The notes: generated by a model not told the origin, from the sequence alone. 64,000 nt of DNA from Thermofilum uzonense (GCF_000993805.1 NZ_CP009961.1:272001-336000), one strand, 5' to 3'; positions 7,891-16,661 are shown, numbered from the stretch's first letter. Translations and numbers: made by a program.

Positions 7891-9228
7891 GTGCCGGAAT
7901 TCTTGGATCTGCTAGCAGAAGAGATTAGTCTCAAGAAGTCTTATCTTGAAGAAATAGCAGGAAAAATCTCAGAGCTATCTGAAAACTATAAGCGCATGGT
8001 CATAGAGAAATGGAGGCCTTTACCACTTCCACTTGAGGTAATCGATAAGATTTTTGCCGTGGATAGTAGTACTGGTATAGTCGAGGTTAGAGGGGGAGGA
8101 GTCGTACTTGTTGCTAGAAGCATGGCCCTCGCACCCTTCTCGAAAAGTTTCAGGAAATTGATTGTGGATGCTCTCTATCCTCGCAACACGAGGGATTTCG
8201 AGGAATATGTGAGGCTTATGAGGGAACACATAGAGCACGCTGTTGCTCTTGAATCGCTAGAGGATGAACCTGAATTTATCCTCATTGATGGCTCGCTCTA
8301 TGGACGTATGATCCATGTCCTAATGGAGTTAGATCTCGAGGGTCGCGAAGACTTCATGTTCGAATATGTAAGAACTTACAGCGACTTCTTAACTCAAGCT
8401 GTAAAGCGTGGTGTGACTGTTTTAGGAGTCAGTAAGGACTCACGTTCAACACTTTTCAAGGAGGAGCTGTTAAAGAAAAAAGTCCTTGAAGTGGCAAGTG
8501 AATCAGGCGTAGAGGTAGAGGAGGTTCTTCGATTATGGACTGCCTTGAGGAGGAGGCCTCGTGAGGTTCTTGAGAAGGTTAGAGAGAAGGTTAGATCGGG
8601 AGAGTTTCCAGCCGTTATCCTGGATTACTTTGAACAGGCCCGCTCACATGTTCCAGACTCTCGCATAATTCTTGAAGCAGGTGTAGGTCAAGGCTATTCG
8701 ACTCCTTTGATCCTGTCTCTCTCAAAGGTAATAGCGGGACAGTTTGACCTTGTGTTAGATGAACGTGCCAGCGACGGTAACATTGAGAAGCTTGCCAGTG
8801 TTTTCGAGAAATCAGCTGACAAGCATAGAGGGGAGTTTGTAAAAATGGCACACGAGCTTATCGCCCAGCTTAGAAGCTATCCTCCTGTTTTGATGTCATA
8901 CACCATTATGGGGCCTGGTGATGATCCTTTACGTGTTGATATTATAAGTAAGGAGATTTCCGACGTAGGCTTTCTAAAAAGTGGAGCACTCCAAAGCTCT
9001 ACTCGGTTCACTGACGATGATACATCTATTGCAACTGTAGAGCGGTCCTTGTCACTTTTAAGAGGGCTTTATGCAGGTGAGAAAGGCTACAATGTTTTAT
9101 TGCTAGAGGTAGACCGCAGGGTTAAAATTTCAGCTGCGACTCTGGAAACATACAGGAGGGTTATAATGAGGGAGCTTGATACGCTTATTCTCCACTCGAG
9201 GGGTGAGAGACGTGTCCACTACCCTTAG
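7891..9228 (+). CDS. nurA: NurA 5'-3' nuclease
   Basis: NurA is the nuclease partner of the HerA hexamer and resects 5' strands at double-strand breaks. The 445-residue protein has the NurA opening with a metal-ligand aspartate in IFAVDSSTG (near residue 55) and the second acidic motif FILIDGSLYGR near residue 132. The C-terminal PVLMSYTIMGPGDDPLRVDI region also fits the family. It is somewhat longer than most NurA proteins because of a helical insert around residues 180-250. It begins the repair operon with a GTG at leaderless distance from a TATA box, and its 3' end overlaps herA by 17 nt. Confidence 0.9.
   Translation: MPEFLDLLAEEISLKKSYLEEIAGKISELSENYKRMVIEKWRPLPLPLEVIDKIFAVDSSTGIVEVRGGGVVLVARSMALAPFSKSFRKLIVDALYPRNTRDFEEYVRLMREHIEHAVALESLEDEPEFILIDGSLYGRMIHVLMELDLEGREDFMFEYVRTYSDFLTQAVKRGVTVLGVSKDSRSTLFKEELLKKKVLEVASESGVEVEEVLRLWTALRRRPREVLEKVREKVRSGEFPAVILDYFEQARSHVPDSRIILEAGVGQGYSTPLILSLSKVIAGQFDLVLDERASDGNIEKLASVFEKSADKHRGEFVKMAHELIAQLRSYPPVLMSYTIMGPGDDPLRVDIISKEISDVGFLKSGALQSSTRFTDDDTSIATVERSLSLLRGLYAGEKGYNVLLLEVDRRVKISAATLETYRRVIMRELDTLILHSRGERRVHYP
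9202..9206 (+). promoter_or_regulatory. Shine-Dalgarno GGTGA deciding the herA start
   Basis: GGTGA within GGGGTGAGAG lies 5 nt before the GTG at 9212. This favours that start over the longer in-frame TTG at 9176 inside nurA. Confidence 0.65.
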
Positions 9229-10825
9229 ACTCGTAGGAAGAATAGTTGAAAAAGCGTCTCCTGAGAGCTTTGTTTTCGTCACAGATAAGGAGGAGCACCC
9301 GCAAAAGTTCGAGTATGTAATAGTCAAGTCTAGGGAATATGTCAACGGAGTTCTCCGAGAAGTAGACGTCCTTGCACAAGTGGTCGGCGTACTCTCTAGC
9401 AGTACTGCCTTCAATTCATCATTGAATTTGACGACACTCGAAAGGGTACATCGGGCCGGTATAGACGACTCCAATATCCTTTGTACGGCTAAAACACTTG
9501 GATTCCTAGCCGAAGAAAATGGTCGCCGGGTTGTACTCATGCCTAGGAGAGCACTATTCCCAGGTAATCCAGTCTTTTTGGCTCCGGACGTGTTAGTCAG
9601 TAACTTTTTTTCCTATGAACCCGAGGAGGGACTGTATATAGGTACTCTGGTTTCCCGAAGTTCGGTCCCCGTTTACCTGAGCGTGAACGGCTTCAGAAGG
9701 CATGTAGCTGTCATTGCACAAACAGGTGCTGGTAAATCTTACACTGTTGGCGTCATAATAGAGGAACTCTTAAGGTTGGGTGGCACAGTTGTCATCATTG
9801 ATCCACACGCCGACTATGTCTTCCTGAGCAGAGACAGGGATATGAAAAGACACGAGTACTCAGATAGAATCCTAGTCTTCAGAAACCCAAACAGTACGGG
9901 AAGATATTCGTCGAGTCAGCTGGATAACGTCAACGAGCTTGTTTTCAAGTTTTCAGAGCTTGAAGGCGACGAGGTTGCCGGTGTCGCCGGCATCCCAGAG
10001 GGGTGGTCGAATGTTCGGGAGGTAATACGTGCGGCTATCAAGAAGCTTCGCGAGAAAGGGAACGATTATCAGGTCAGGGATCTAATACAGGTGCTGGAAG
10101 AGATGGCTGCAAGGTCTGGAACTAAGAGAGTTAAAGAGGCTGCCCAGCGAGCTATAAACCACTTGAGACGTTTAACTAAGTTTAAAGTGTTTGGGGAAAG
10201 GACTACTTCTCTCAAAGACGAGATACTTAAACCCGGGCATGTATCAGTTATCGACTTGTCAGGGCTAAACGATGCAAGCCAGGACTATATTGTTAGCAGG
10301 ATCCTTGAAGGTATATTCGAGCTGAGATACACGGGGCAATTCAGGTACCCTATATTCGTCGTGGTTGAAGAAGCTCATCGATTCGTCCCGGGTAAGGAGT
10401 CCAAGAAAAATACCATGTCCTCTCAGGTTATTAAAACAATAGCTGCAGAGGGGAGAAAGTTCGGCGTTTTCCTCGTACTGGTAACCCAGCGGCCCAGCAA
10501 GATAGACTCGGATGCTTTAAGCCAGTGCAACAGCCAGATAATATTGAGAATAACAAACCCTCTGGATCAGAGAGCAGTTCAAGAATCAAGCGAGAGGCTC
10601 AGTGCAGACCTCCTTGCAGATCTGCCTGGGCTAAACGTGGGTGAGGCTGTAATCCTAGGTGAACTCACGCGTGTGCCCGTGGTAGTCAAGGTTCGTGCTA
10701 GAAGGACAAAGGAAGGTGGTGCGGACATTGATCTGGTCGAGGAACTAAGGCAGGCAAGGGAAGAGTTAAGGCTTACCACGCCTAAAATAGCTCCACCAGC
10801 CAAGGGTGTATTCTCAGAGGTGTAA
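9212..10825 (+). CDS. herA: HerA hexameric DNA translocase/helicase
   Basis: HerA pumps DNA and works with NurA, Mre11 and Rad50 to make 3' single-stranded ends for recombination. The chosen GTG start gives 537 residues. An N-terminal HAS-barrel (about 1-130) is followed by the FtsK/HerA ATPase with Walker A AQTGAGKS (Lys175), Walker B VVVEEAH (Glu386-Glu387), and the VTQRPSKID and ILRITNPLDQ segments around sensor and arginine-finger positions. All key residues look intact. A good ribosome-binding site decides the start, and the gene overlaps nurA by 17 nt. mre11 follows 3 nt after the stop. Confidence 0.95.
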   Translation: MSTTLRLVGRIVEKASPESFVFVTDKEEHPQKFEYVIVKSREYVNGVLREVDVLAQVVGVLSSSTAFNSSLNLTTLERVHRAGIDDSNILCTAKTLGFLAEENGRRVVLMPRRALFPGNPVFLAPDVLVSNFFSYEPEEGLYIGTLVSRSSVPVYLSVNGFRRHVAVIAQTGAGKSYTVGVIIEELLRLGGTVVIIDPHADYVFLSRDRDMKRHEYSDRILVFRNPNSTGRYSSSQLDNVNELVFKFSELEGDEVAGVAGIPEGWSNVREVIRAAIKKLREKGNDYQVRDLIQVLEEMAARSGTKRVKEAAQRAINHLRRLTKFKVFGERTTSLKDEILKPGHVSVIDLSGLNDASQDYIVSRILEGIFELRYTGQFRYPIFVVVEEAHRFVPGKESKKNTMSSQVIKTIAAEGRKFGVFLVLVTQRPSKIDSDALSQCNSQIILRITNPLDQRAVQESSERLSADLLADLPGLNVGEAVILGELTRVPVVVKVRARRTKEGGADIDLVEELRQAREELRLTTPKIAPPAKGVFSEV

Positions 10826-10828
10826 AAC

Positions 10829-11995
10829 ATGCCTCTTAGGCTAGTTCATACAGCTGACAACCACCTAGACCCAAAACTAAGTTATCTTGGTTCGAAAGCC
10901 CTCGATAGAAGACTTGACTTCTACAAATCCTTTCTCAGGGTTGTCGAGTTCGCGCTAGAGAGGAAGCCTCATCTATTCTTAGTCTCGGGGGATCTCTTCG
11001 ATTCGATAAATCCCCGAAACCCCGTAAGGACGAGAGTATTGCAAGCTTTCCGTCGAATAACGTCTGAGGGCATTAAGGCCTTCGTCATCGGTGGCAACCA
11101 CGACATGCCTCGATCACAAGAAGAGGGCATGTCACCCATAGGTGAGATTGAGGCCGCAGGATACGCGACATTCTTCCCAGAACTAGACGAGTTCAGGGTG
11201 GAGCACCTTAAAGTCGAGGGGCTGGACGTAGCAGTAACGGGTCTCTCCTTTGATCCTACTCTGGAAATAAGCTCTAATCCTCTTCGTGACCGCAACCTAA
11301 GGATCCCAATCGAAGGGGATATAAACATCGCCATGCTCCATTATAACTTTGCAGGCTTCAAAATACCCAAGAACTGGGCAGCACCCACGATAACTCCCGC
11401 AGATCTCCCCGAAGGCCTCAACTATCTCGCCATGGGACACCTCCACGGGCACTCCTATACAACCATTAAGGAGACACTCGTGGTCTACCCTGGGAGCACT
11501 GAGCGCAGAAGCTTCAACGAGGAAACTGACGATAAAAAGGGATTCGTGTACGTTGAGCTCACTGGTAACAATACACCCAGACTGGAGTTTATAGAGGTTC
11601 CGACCCGTCCCATGAAAACTTTTGAGGTAACTTTAGACGAGACGGTTGACGAACCCGTAACCAGGGTTCTTAAAGCCGTTAATGTCGTTGATCAAGAGCT
11701 ATTGGCAAGGATCGTAATAAAGGGAAGCCTTCCCGTTGAGAAGATGTCACGCTACAGCAAGGCTGAACTATTAAACAAACTAGCAAACAACTTTTTCCAC
11801 GTTGTCGTTGATGACTCTGGTCTTAAAAGCCTCTTCAAGGAGATCAAGTTAACATCTGATATAAGTTCGCCAATCGATTCCTATAAAGAGTACTTCAATG
11901 AGGCCTTATCCAATGTGACGGGCGAGGAAGCGGACATCTTGAGGCTTGCCCTGGAAATAGGTCTTAAAGTACTACAGGAGGTGGGAGCGTGGTAG
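10829..11995 (+). CDS. mre11: Mre11-family DNA repair nuclease
   Basis: A calpha-beta metallophosphoesterase that acts with Rad50 as exo/endonuclease at DNA ends; 388 residues. The di-metal ligands are present: Asp10 and His12 (TADNHLD), Asp55 (SGDLFD), Asn90-His91 (GGNHD), a histidine in AMLHYN, and the GHLHGH motif. The capping domain (about 215-280) and a C-terminal helical Rad50-binding region follow. AGAGGTG sits 7 nt before the ATG. It overlaps rad50 by 7 nt, so the two are translationally coupled. Confidence 0.93.
   Translation: MPLRLVHTADNHLDPKLSYLGSKALDRRLDFYKSFLRVVEFALERKPHLFLVSGDLFDSINPRNPVRTRVLQAFRRITSEGIKAFVIGGNHDMPRSQEEGMSPIGEIEAAGYATFFPELDEFRVEHLKVEGLDVAVTGLSFDPTLEISSNPLRDRNLRIPIEGDINIAMLHYNFAGFKIPKNWAAPTITPADLPEGLNYLAMGHLHGHSYTTIKETLVVYPGSTERRSFNEETDDKKGFVYVELTGNNTPRLEFIEVPTRPMKTFEVTLDETVDEPVTRVLKAVNVVDQELLARIVIKGSLPVEKMSRYSKAELLNKLANNFFHVVVDDSGLKSLFKEIKLTSDISSPIDSYKEYFNEALSNVTGEEADILRLALEIGLKVLQEVGAW
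11977..11983 (+). promoter_or_regulatory. Strong Shine-Dalgarno for rad50
   Basis: AGGAGGTG is a near-perfect anti-16S match 5 nt before the GTG start of rad50 at 11989, inside the end of mre11. Confidence 0.7.
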
Positions 11996-14514
11996 TCATA
12001 CATTCCATTAAAGCAGTAAACTTTAGAAGGCTTAACCTGACGACGCCTCTCAGCCTAGGAAAAGGATTTTATATAATAAAGGGCCGGAACGAGGCTGGCA
12101 AATCCACCTTAATCGAATCCATACTTTTCGGTCTTTACGGAGACCATCAAGTCATAGGCGATTTGCGGGGTAATCCACGCGGAGGCTATAATGAGGTCGT
12201 GAACCATAAGGCTCGGAGAGCACAAGTAGAGGTCGAGTTCGAGGTCGACGGTAAAAGGTACCGCGTGTACAGGGAACTTGTCAGAGAGGGTGAAACGATA
12301 AAGCAGGTTAACGCTCGCCTCATAGAAATTACACAAGGCACTGAAAGAGTCATAGCTTCTGGTACCAAGCAAGTAAACGATGAGATTCAACGTCTCTTAA
12401 GAGTCTCATGGAGAGAGATGCTCTCCACAAACATCGTTGCACAAAAAGATCTTGAGAGGATTATTCAAATGGGTAAAAGCGAGCGAGAACAAATAATTAA
12501 CCTCATGATGGGTCTTGAAAGCTATAATAAGGCTATACAGGCTCTCGAGGAAACAAGGAGCAACAAAAATCGTGAAAAAGAACAACTTGATCGCGTATAC
12601 CAAGAAAAAAAGAAGGAAGCCGACTCCCTAGAAGGAAAAGTAAACTCAATTCCAAACCTTATGAGAGAGCTCAAAGAAATAGAGGAAAAAATCCCTGCTC
12701 TAGGTGAGGAGGAAGCTGCACTCAAGCTAGCCCTTCAATACTTGGCGCACCTGAGGCAATCCCTTTATAAGAAAAAACAATTAGAGGACAAGAAGTCGCG
12801 TGTAGAGGAGCTCATAGCTGAAACCAAGAAGGCTATCAGAGATGAACAGGAAAAAAAGAACAGAAATGATAATGAAATAAAACAAATAGAAGGAAAACTA
12901 CCAAAGTTACAAGATGAACTCGAAAAGATCCAAAAGGAACTTGAGCAGCTGCAATCAACGTATGAAGATAAACTGAAAATACTTAGCGATTTAAAATCCT
13001 ACAAGGATAACTGGGACAGAGAGTATGACAGGATGAAAGGGATAAGCAACGAATTAGAGACTCTAGAAGACGACATAAGGAGAATAGAGATCGCTAAAAA
13101 GGAGCTCGCGAAACTCGAAGAAGAGAAAAGAAATATAGAGCTACTCCTAGCTTCCATAAAACCCTCCATACAACCTTATCTGAGTAGTATAGGTCTCGCC
13201 TTCATAGCTTTGCTCGCTTTGCTATACCAAGCTACTTGGGTTGCTATTCCACTTTCAGGCGTCTCACTTATTGTTTTTCTTGTAACCTATCATCGTAGAT
13301 CTTCCCTCAAGCAAGAATTGCTAACTAAACTGGGTAGACTTGAGTCGGAAATAGGTCCAAGGAAAGCTCTTGTTGCTCAGCTTGAGGGGAAAAATAAACG
13401 TTTAGAAGATCTAAAATTAGAGGAAGAGAAAATCCGGGCTCATCTCGAGAGACTGGAACAGGAGATCATCATACTTACTGGCGAAAGTAATGCAGCAAGC
13501 ATTGATAAAGCATTAAATGCTCTGCAAAATGAGGTTAAACTCCTCAGTGAGAAAATTAATGAACTGAGGGAAAAGGAGAGCAACCTGAAGGCTGGGATTG
13601 AAAGCAGTGGCAAGCAGTTAGAAAGGCTCAAACAGGAAGTCAAGGAATCCACAGAGAAGCTAGAAGAACTTAACGCTAAATTAAGCAAACTAGAAGAGAA
13701 TAGAAGGAAGATATTAGAGGAACTGGAGCACGTAATCATACCATCCGTTCCACCAGGACTCAAGGGTAGGGTAGAATACGTTGAGATGGCTGCTGAGGAA
13801 CAAGACCTCGACCTGGTAGATAGGGTATATCGCAAGTTAGACGATGATTTACTGGGAATCTCTAATAAAAAAACAGAATTAAATGTACGGAAGGAAACCC
13901 TGAAAAAAGAGTTAAGCGAGGCTGAGATGATTAAGCCGCGACTACAAGAGCTCCAAGAAGAGATTAAAAAATTAGAGGAAGAGCGTAAACGCCTCGATAA
14001 GGAGTTTGAAGCTGTCAAAAGAGCTCTTCAGGCACTGAAAGAGATATCACGTAGGAGGCGTGAGTTGTTCGCCCCTCTGGTCGAGAACTATATGAGCTGG
14101 ACAATAAACTACTTTACAGACGGAAGGTACAAAGCCGTTAGGTTGCAGCCTGATACCTACGACTTGGAGGTATATGATGCTGAGGCAGGAAGATGGCTTA
14201 GACGAGACATTTATTCAGGGGGAACGAACGACCAGTTCCTTTTAGCTTTAAGGATAGCTTTCACGCTTGCGCTTCTACCTAGCTCTAAGGGCTCTTATCC
14301 TAAATTCATAGTTCTCGACGAGCCTCTCGGCTCGTCGGATGGAGAAAGGAGGGAGAGGATAGTTAGTTTCTTCGCAGGGGAGCTCTCAAGGTTCTTTGAT
14401 CAGATCTTTCTAATAACCCATGTAGAGGTGGAGGAGCCACCCGGAGCCACTATAATTTATATCGAAGATGGAAGAATAACAAGGGTATACAAGGCTGGCG
14501 GCGAGGAGGCATAA
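11989..14514 (+). CDS. rad50: Rad50-family SMC-like ATPase with a hydrophobic hairpin in place of the zinc hook
   Basis: The ABC-type ATPase partner of Mre11; 841 residues. The head motifs are intact: Walker A GRNEAGKST (Lys38), signature SGGTNDQ (Ser743-Gly745) and Walker B VLDEP (Asp777-Glu778). Two long coiled-coil arms run from about 165 to 395 and 440 to 725. At the exact middle, where Rad50 normally carries the CxxC zinc hook, there are instead two hydrophobic segments (about 398-413 and 417-434) joined by a short turn containing Gln and Thr-Trp, followed by basic residues (HRR). The whole protein contains no cysteine. This resembles a membrane-inserted hairpin such as that of bacterial YhaN-type proteins. 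The gene context still says repair. Confidence 0.9.
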   Translation: MVVIHSIKAVNFRRLNLTTPLSLGKGFYIIKGRNEAGKSTLIESILFGLYGDHQVIGDLRGNPRGGYNEVVNHKARRAQVEVEFEVDGKRYRVYRELVREGETIKQVNARLIEITQGTERVIASGTKQVNDEIQRLLRVSWREMLSTNIVAQKDLERIIQMGKSEREQIINLMMGLESYNKAIQALEETRSNKNREKEQLDRVYQEKKKEADSLEGKVNSIPNLMRELKEIEEKIPALGEEEAALKLALQYLAHLRQSLYKKKQLEDKKSRVEELIAETKKAIRDEQEKKNRNDNEIKQIEGKLPKLQDELEKIQKELEQLQSTYEDKLKILSDLKSYKDNWDREYDRMKGISNELETLEDDIRRIEIAKKELAKLEEEKRNIELLLASIKPSIQPYLSSIGLAFIALLALLYQATWVAIPLSGVSLIVFLVTYHRRSSLKQELLTKLGRLESEIGPRKALVAQLEGKNKRLEDLKLEEEKIRAHLERLEQEIIILTGESNAASIDKALNALQNEVKLLSEKINELREKESNLKAGIESSGKQLERLKQEVKESTEKLEELNAKLSKLEENRRKILEELEHVIIPSVPPGLKGRVEYVEMAAEEQDLDLVDRVYRKLDDDLLGISNKKTELNVRKETLKKELSEAEMIKPRLQELQEEIKKLEEERKRLDKEFEAVKRALQALKEISRRRRELFAPLVENYMSWTINYFTDGRYKAVRLQPDTYDLEVYDAEAGRWLRRDIYSGGTNDQFLLALRIAFTLALLPSSKGSYPKFIVLDEPLGSSDGERRERIVSFFAGELSRFFDQIFLITHVEVEEPPGATIIYIEDGRITRVYKAGGEEA

Positions 14515-15043: not shown

Positions 15044-15784
15044 GTGCATAAGGGGTTTACTAAGAGCGAGGAAGGCCTCTACGACGAGTTCGAGGAAAGG
15101 ACACCCTACTGGGATTACAGGACAGACAATTACGCCTCAATTAGCGTCAGGGACAGCAAGCTTACACTTTGTAGCGGTCCAACAGAAGCTCTCTACTATT
15201 CCAACGCTGAGATATCCGATGGAAGGTTTGACGATCTCCCCTGGGAAACCAAGACGTTTGAGGCAAAGCTGAGAATGTCTCAGCTGCACTACGGCTCAGC
15301 AGGATGGGGCTTCTGGAACCACTCGATGCTCTTCAGCCTCAGCAGGCCGATATGGTTTATACATTTGCAGAGCAGGGGCCCATATATTTTCCAGGGCTTC
15401 TTTGCGCAGGCTGTTACAGGCTTTATACCGATTAAAATTTACCGAGGATCTCTGCTGGCTCCAAGCCTCATCTCAAGGCTAACAGGAGGTGCGATAGGCG
15501 TAACAATTTACACTCACAAACCCGTGCTTCAAAACCTCGATTTAACTGATTGGCACACCTACAAGATAGAATGGTTGAAGACTGAGGCAAAATACTATAT
15601 AGATGGCAGCCTTGTAGCCAGGCTTCCCATTAATGCAGGATCGTTCAAAGCAAGGGCGGATATATGGATAGACAACGCAGTCTTCGGCTATAACAGAAGA
15701 GATGCAGGTCAGGTCTACAGGCACTTGACCCAAGAGAATAGAAGCAAGTCCTGTATCGAAGTAGAATATATAAAAATCTATTAG
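15044..15784 (+). CDS. Concanavalin-A-like (GH16/LamG-fold) protein of unknown role
   Basis: A 246-residue protein without a signal peptide or membrane segment. The late segment WHTYKIEWLKTEAKYYIDG is characteristic of the jelly-roll fold of family 16 glycoside hydrolases and related lectin-like domains. FEAKLRM, GWGFWNH and WIDNAVF also fit the fold. I do not see the ExDxxE catalytic motif of GH16, so it may bind rather than cut carbohydrate. The GTG start is the base after the rpiB stop, with GAGAGGTG 7 nt upstream, so it is translationally coupled to rpiB. A cytoplasmic protein of this fold coupled to a sugar isomerase is unusual. Confidence 0.55.
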   Translation: MHKGFTKSEEGLYDEFEERTPYWDYRTDNYASISVRDSKLTLCSGPTEALYYSNAEISDGRFDDLPWETKTFEAKLRMSQLHYGSAGWGFWNHSMLFSLSRPIWFIHLQSRGPYIFQGFFAQAVTGFIPIKIYRGSLLAPSLISRLTGGAIGVTIYTHKPVLQNLDLTDWHTYKIEWLKTEAKYYIDGSLVARLPINAGSFKARADIWIDNAVFGYNRRDAGQVYRHLTQENRSKSCIEVEYIKIY

Positions 15785-16355: not shown

Positions 16356-16661
16356 ATGTCACCAGGTTGGGGGTGGTATCGAGGCTGGGGACCATACCCA
16401 GGCAGAGGACCATTCTCTTACCTTCCGCCATGGCAGCGCCCTGGATGGATCTACGGACCAGGATGGTGCTGGTGGTACTACGCACGCTACGGCAGTCTTC
16501 CAACGTTTCCACTTCCCACCGCTCAGGTGCCTACTGTACAACAAGAGTATCTCGAAGCATACAGGCAGTGGCTAGAAGATGCACGACGAAACCTGGAACG
16601 GGAGATCCAAGAACTGGATAAAAGAATAAAGGAGCTTAAAGGACAAGGAAAAACCGATTAA
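16356..16661 (+). CDS. DUF5320-family protein
   Basis: A 101-residue protein. The N-terminal half is full of Gly, Trp, Tyr and Pro (GWGWYRGWGPYPGRGPFSYLPPW) and the C-terminal third is a charged coiled coil (about 68-97). This two-part layout is that of DUF5320 proteins, often found beside DUF134, Mrp-type ATPases and dinitrogenase-cofactor-like (NifX) proteins. Function is unknown. The ATG at 16356 is preceded by GGTG 6 nt upstream. A T9 run follows the gene. Confidence 0.65.
   Translation: MSPGWGWYRGWGPYPGRGPFSYLPPWQRPGWIYGPGWCWWYYARYGSLPTFPLPTAQVPTVQQEYLEAYRQWLEDARRNLEREIQELDKRIKELKGQGKTD

Follow-up and report, generated by a model that had tools for sequence, protein, structure and literature searches.

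We identified, within a window of 64,000 nucleotides from Thermofilum uzonense (the whole stretch of DNA that was analysed), a gene for a Rad50 protein of a distinct lineage, which belongs to what is most likely the only Mre11-Rad50 complex of its host and whose apex probably forms a membrane-spanning hairpin in place of the zinc hook. Insertion of the hairpin into a membrane, its topology, the closing of a ring through it, and a role in break repair are inferred. The genes and features concerned are listed below, with positions counted from the first letter of the window.

7891 to 9228, plus strand: nurA, matched by the Pfam NurA profile
9176 to 10825, plus strand: herA, matched by Pfam DUF87/HerA_C and by NF040819; it overlaps nurA and its exact start is uncertain
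10829 to 11995, plus strand: mre11, 388 amino acids, phosphodiesterase motifs I-V intact
11989 to 14514, plus strand: rad50 with apex hairpin, 841 amino acids, GTG start overlapping the mre11 stop; supported by the open reading frame, profiles and the AlphaFold2 head
12082 to 12108, plus strand: Rad50 Walker A, GRNEAGKST (residues 32-40)
13165 to 13299, plus strand: apex hydrophobic hairpin (residues 393-437), ending in HRR; position kept in 19 relatives
13168 to 13227, plus strand: first hairpin helix, putative TM1 (residues 394-413; 61-80 of the AlphaFold2 apex fragment); Eisenberg 0.63, low hydrophobic moment
13228 to 13242, plus strand: turn (residues 414-418), from the AlphaFold2 apex fragment
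13243 to 13290, plus strand: second hairpin helix, putative TM2 (residues 419-434), running on into the return coiled coil, then HRR
14212 to 14235, plus strand: Rad50 signature, YSGGTNDQ (residues 742-749)
14305 to 14340, plus strand: Rad50 Walker B and D-loop, FIVLDEP..GSSD (Walker B at residues 773-779)

A Rad50 without a zinc hook

Profile searches give the gene order nurA-herA-mre11-rad50, all on the plus strand (7891-14514). The 841-residue product of the last gene carries a bipartite ABC ATPase head in which every motif is complete: Walker A (32-40), Q-loop (151-155), signature (742-749), Walker B (773-779), D-loop and His switch (His 811). An AlphaFold2 model of the full-length protein, based on a 19-sequence alignment, shows a good head and two long arms, and Foldseek searches with the model rank Rad50 structures first, with matches in the head.

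The translated reading frame contains no cysteine and thus no CxxC zinc hook. Cysteine is scarce in the proteome, making up only 0.31% of residues across five proteins of the window, and its absence from 841 residues, expected by chance about 7% of the time, is unremarkable alone. The real signal is the missing CxxC together with the hairpin. A sequence-only reading had claimed a Rad50 without cysteine or CxxC hook, with intact head motifs, in a nurA-herA-mre11-rad50 operon, and all of this held on translation of the frame at 11989-14514, motif inspection and profile searches.

The protein scores 122.7 bits against the NCBIfam Rad50 equivalog NF003034, below the cut-off of 700. This is weak evidence, since hook Rad50s of the same order miss the cut-off too. 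The arcadin-4 profile NF053563 gives it only 49.8 bits, and the gene lies outside the crenactin/arcadin cluster. A match to the defence ATPase LmuB reaches 120 bits. The protein is a Rad50 of the Mre11-Rad50 complex in the broad sense, and does not meet the canonical definition based on the zinc hook.

The window comes from a genome of 1,611,988 bp in a single contig, 99.93% complete. Its sole other strong Rad50-like match (L009:8860-11262) encodes an 800-residue protein with a CPVC hook. The best profile for this protein is arcadin-4 (NF053563, 271 bits), and its gene lies near crenactin (701.9 bits) with no mre11 beside it; arcadin-4 is a Rad50-related member of the crenactin cluster (PMC5173319). 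A search of the genome found no second Mre11, and the same query matched hook-type Mre11 elsewhere down to E ~1e-6. A hidden hook Rad50 for repair, which would have undermined the sequence-only reading, is ruled out by the identity of the other match as arcadin-4 and by the finding of one Mre11, so the claim stands. Because the only Mre11 found is paired with the hairpin copy and the CPVC copy is arcadin-4, we take the hairpin protein to be the repair Rad50. That it belongs to the cell's only Mre11-Rad50 complex is very likely from the genome searches; the repair role is inferred from operon context.

Some further observations concern arcadin-4 and the rest of the window. The arcadin-4 of genome G022 (L069) has a hook that reads CYVC rather than CPxC. 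A reading frame at 15044-15784, directly after an rpiB-like gene, suggests a concanavalin-type glycoside hydrolase or lectin fold by eye only, without profile support, and a short frame at 16356-16661 has an N-terminal part rich in Trp, Gly and Pro and, after it, a tail that resembles a coiled coil.

The apex hairpin and its family

The apex of the window Rad50, residues 393-437 (SIQPYLSSIGLAFIALLALLYQATWVAIPLSGVSLIVFLVTYHRR), lies in the middle of the coiled coil and consists of two hydrophobic stretches with a short turn between them, as the sequence-only reading had claimed for residues 398-434, followed by HRR. An uncharged run without D, E, K or R extends over 44 residues (about 392-435). 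The Kyte-Doolittle 19-mer maximum is 1.98, among the weakest hairpins of the family. The summed Eisenberg hydrophobicity of two 21-residue apex windows is 1.31; by the same measure an evident multi-span protein of the window reaches 1.43, and six soluble proteins give 0.75-0.86.

In the full-length AlphaFold2 model the tip helices span residues 398-415 and 423-463 (hairpin pLDDT 42-55). When residues 334-494 are modelled alone, one helix ends at 389 and, after a break, another covers 394-413; beyond a turn, a further helix starts at 419 and runs on into the return coil. The mean pLDDT of this model is 85.6, with about 62-85 across the hairpin. A proline lies near the start of the second hairpin helix. 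The apex is thus predicted to be a helix-turn-helix at the tip of the coiled coil, with fair confidence in the fragment and low confidence in the full-length model. An ordinary buried helix at 398-434 is not what AlphaFold2 gives; the helical hairpin is at the tip and not buried. A helix of 20 residues measures about 30 Angstrom, which corresponds to one membrane span.

Relatives were gathered by searching at the levels of order, class and phylum. The comparison set consists of 19 hairpin Rad50s whose apex could be read, 35 hook archaeal Rad50s, four arcadin-4s, four SbcCs and four YhaNs. A relatives search with the window Rad50 as single query returned only two distant hook proteins. High-scoring relatives have the hairpin and no CxxC, and the remaining ones a CPxC hook. 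The hydrophobic apex hairpin without CxxC is present in 19 of 19 relatives with a readable apex; the reverse, CxxC without hairpin, is found in all ordinary archaeal Rad50s (35/35), arcadin-4s (4/4) and SbcCs (4/4). Apex Kyte-Doolittle maxima do not overlap: they range from 1.95 to 3.11 in hairpin Rad50s and from 2.08 to 2.65 in YhaNs, compared with 1.28 or less in hook Rad50s (-0.11 to 1.28, n=35), arcadin-4s and SbcCs. The summed Eisenberg value of two 21-residue windows is 1.12-1.70 in all 19 hairpin Rad50s, with a low hydrophobic moment (0.01-0.25), and peaks at 0.33 in hook Rad50s, 0.22 in arcadin-4s and 0.66 in SbcCs. The uncharged apex run has a median of 40 residues in hairpin Rad50s versus 9 in hook Rad50s. 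Mean net flank charge is +1.3 before and +2.6 after the hairpin, versus +0.3 and -0.3 in hook Rad50s.

The apex hairpin is therefore a conserved family trait that marks a distinct Rad50 lineage. Two trivial explanations can be set aside. A chance hydrophobic patch is ruled out by the family-wide conserved position and the hydropathy scores, and a sequencing error or frameshift hiding a CxxC hook is excluded by the agreement of the 19 relatives, which come from many independent genomes.

Counting matches above about 200 bits in the phylum search, or pieces of such matches, about 24 of the 398 genomes sampled from the phylum have a hairpin Rad50, and they represent at least eight families. A single genome from outside, G604 of the archaeal phylum that includes Methanobrevibacter, has one as well. 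The representative there (L231:286-4212) is about 1310 residues long, has an apex Kyte-Doolittle value of 3.11 and its own Mre11, and the same genome holds a hook-type pair (L235).

The hairpin sequence is barely alignable across relatives, with no invariant column. What is kept despite this divergence is hydrophobicity, a length of about 40 residues, positive flanks, and often an [NSHG]P turn. Diverged sequence with hydrophobicity, length and turn retained fits a lipid-facing hairpin, and positive flanks on both sides fit a positive-inside topology with both ends in. That the hydrophobic segments are long enough to span a membrane and have positive-inside flanks is shown from sequence and model only, without a dedicated topology predictor; membrane insertion itself is inferred, and to our knowledge no experiment has shown membrane localisation of any member of the hairpin lineage.

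A rival explanation is a hook-free contact in a soluble complex, with the tips joined without zinc by a hydrophobic four-helix bundle made of two hairpins. Two points speak for such a bundle: the hairpin sits exactly at the hook position, and the hook itself serves for dimerisation and can be replaced by an SMC hinge (PMC6969161). However, the apex has about 40 uncharged residues, a low hydrophobic moment without a polar face, no conserved contacts, and positive flanks. A bundle in solution would be expected to retain a polar exterior, and we consider this explanation unlikely. The sequence-only reading had left membrane tether and hydrophobic dimer contact side by side; the tether is favoured, on sequence and model and with no bench data.

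Partner genes and a probable link to YhaN/SbcE

The Mre11 proteins paired with hairpin Rad50s, including that of the window, form one clade (99/93), and in every locus long enough to show its neighbour the hairpin Rad50 adjoins an Mre11 of this clade. Most of these pairs lie in a nurA-herA operon. Of the families in the order, f1 and f4 have the hairpin operon, and other f1 genera, together with family f3, carry a hook mre11-rad50. Three genomes (G023, G109 and G604) contain both kinds. The hook mre11-rad50 of G023 (L106, G023:C14) lies with herA on an 11.5-kb contig, for which transfer or contamination is possible.

Pair type and HerA type are mixed in two loci. In L164 a hook pair lies beside a HerA of the hairpin-operon kind (684 bits). 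In L163:6420-12454 the order is mre11-rad50(hairpin)-nurA-herA, and the NurA and HerA are hardly related to the usual ones of the hairpin operon. These mixed loci indicate that the mre11-rad50 pair moves as a cassette. Since hook and hairpin pairs alternate beside HerA-NurA of the same kind, the two are likely to be functionally interchangeable, an inference from gene context. Three hook Mre11-Rad50 loci of the same class (L187, L188 and L190) have an Mre11 near the hairpin/YhaO side of the tree and possibly represent a further lineage.

An AAA_27 search in two distant genomes found other ATPases only, and a phylum-wide search yielded four yhaO-yhaN loci. These four Bacillota YhaNs all lack CxxC and carry a hydrophobic hairpin at the apex. 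Their signature, S[RK]GTxE[QE]LYL, is close to the SGGTxDQxLLA of archaeal hairpin Rad50s, and the window signature YSGGTNDQ is of the SxGTxxQ type that YhaN also has, whereas SGGE or S[ILM]GE is usual in hook Rad50s. The window Rad50 scores 18.6 bits against Pfam AAA_27 (PF13514), under the cut-off of 22, and the YhaNs score 76-77. On account of this score the window protein is better regarded as a related branch than as YhaN proper.

Trees of the head were built with the apex excluded. They separate archaeal hairpin Rad50s and YhaN from hook Rad50s, arcadin-4 and SbcC with support of 100/98. The split retains support of 90 with the N lobe only, 95 with the C lobe only, 94 without the signature columns, 95 without bridging rows, and 87 when bridging rows, signature and L187 are all removed; across all the variants tried, support was 87-98. 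An archaeal clade of hairpin and hook Rad50s without YhaN and SbcC is rejected by the AU test (p-AU 0.019). In the Mre11 tree YhaO falls near the hairpin Mre11s (95/82), and an archaeal clade free of YhaO is not rejected (p-AU 0.31). The main caveat on the head-tree grouping is the YhaN branch, with 2.67 changes per site.

We consider it likely that archaeal hairpin Rad50 and YhaN/SbcE share one branch of Rad50, subject to this long-branch caveat. The sequence-only reading had called such a link possible and credited YhaN with hydrophobic segments; the segments are confirmed in the four sequences, and the link is supported by the head trees and compatible with the Mre11 tree. It remains possible that the hairpins of the two groups arose independently and that their grouping reflects long-branch attraction, an alternative that concerns origin only and is compatible with the membrane reading. 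The length of the YhaN branch, and an Mre11 tree that does not reject a YhaO-free archaeal clade, speak for independent origin. Against it, the split survives removal of lobes, signature and bridging rows, the competing head topology is rejected, and YhaO groups near the hairpin Mre11s.

Proposed mechanism and closest known systems

We propose a cytoplasmic dimer of two Rad50s, held together at the ATPase heads and by Mre11. From there each arm, with about 210 helical residues and a length near 30 nm, would reach the membrane, where the hairpin would insert with both ends inside. The membrane would then do the job of the hook, with the tips confined in two dimensions and the ring closed through the bilayer. 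Alternatively, rather than closing a ring, the membrane may link many Mre11-Rad50 complexes into a patch. DNA ends would be held at the membrane while Mre11, and then HerA-NurA, resect them. The resection role is inferred from operon context and rests on no assay.

A second rival explanation accepts the membrane anchor and assigns it mainly to DNA entering at the membrane, by uptake, cell-to-cell import or as virus DNA, rather than to chromosomal breaks. In its favour, YhaN/SbcE has been named in both competence and repair (2010 work cited by PMC4205851 and PMC3896406). For Thermoproteales, a connection of HerA-NurA and Rad50 with DNA import has been drawn, and some members have rad50 and herA near Ted DNA-import genes (PMC9905601). 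The window Rad50 also resembles defence ATPases such as LmuB. However, the complex is the sole Mre11-Rad50 of the organism and is encoded in a standard resection operon, and a likeness to defence ATPases is expected across the whole Rad50/SMC superfamily. We therefore regard this explanation as improbable and prefer a complex that would act in resection at the membrane.

A bolder reading, which could as readily prove wrong as right, is that Rad50 split early into a zinc-hook and a membrane-hairpin branch, that the hairpin branch including YhaN forms membrane-closed rings, and that, as the sole Mre11-Rad50 in the archaea studied, it carries out resection at the membrane.

What is probably new here is an archaeal Rad50 complex, the only Mre11-Rad50 of its host, in which a probable membrane hairpin, its insertion inferred, takes the place of the hook. 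We found no paper on an archaeal Mre11-Rad50 with a transmembrane apex in the open-access literature searched, which is consistent with the earlier claim that this kind of Rad50 is undescribed and cannot prove it. The tip of Rad50 is commonly defined by its zinc hook, and these are cells, several with single-contig genomes, whose only Mre11-Rad50 bears a probable membrane anchor in its place. Two questions become testable: whether the job of the hook is merely to hold two tips together, which a membrane could also do, and whether archaeal and bacterial end resection can be organised at the membrane. In addition, the poorly understood bacterial YhaN/SbcE gains a counterpart in archaea, one that is encoded in a clear repair operon.

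Among known systems, the archaeal hook Mre11-Rad50 with HerA-NurA shares the ATPase head and its motifs, the antiparallel coiled coil, the adjacent Mre11 and the nurA-herA operon. In contrast to it, the window Rad50 lacks CxxC, has the apex hairpin, carries SGGTxDQ rather than SGGE, and pairs with an Mre11 of a separate clade. Arcadin-4 (Rkd4) is likewise a Rad50/SMC-like ATPase of the same archaeal genomes, but it has retained a CPVC hook, is part of the crenactin cluster and forms a separate clade. ASRP/coalescin (ClsN) and Sph are archaeal Rad50-like ATPases with a weak profile match to the window Rad50 (84 bits); most of them, however, have a zinc hook (PMC9389158). YhaN (SbcE)/YhaO shares the apex hydrophobic hairpin, the absence of CxxC, the SxGTxxQ-type signature, an adjacent Mre11-like YhaO and the same side of the tree, whereas YhaN is longer (about 980-1115 residues), matches AAA_27 strongly, and has no nurA-herA seen beside the fetched loci.
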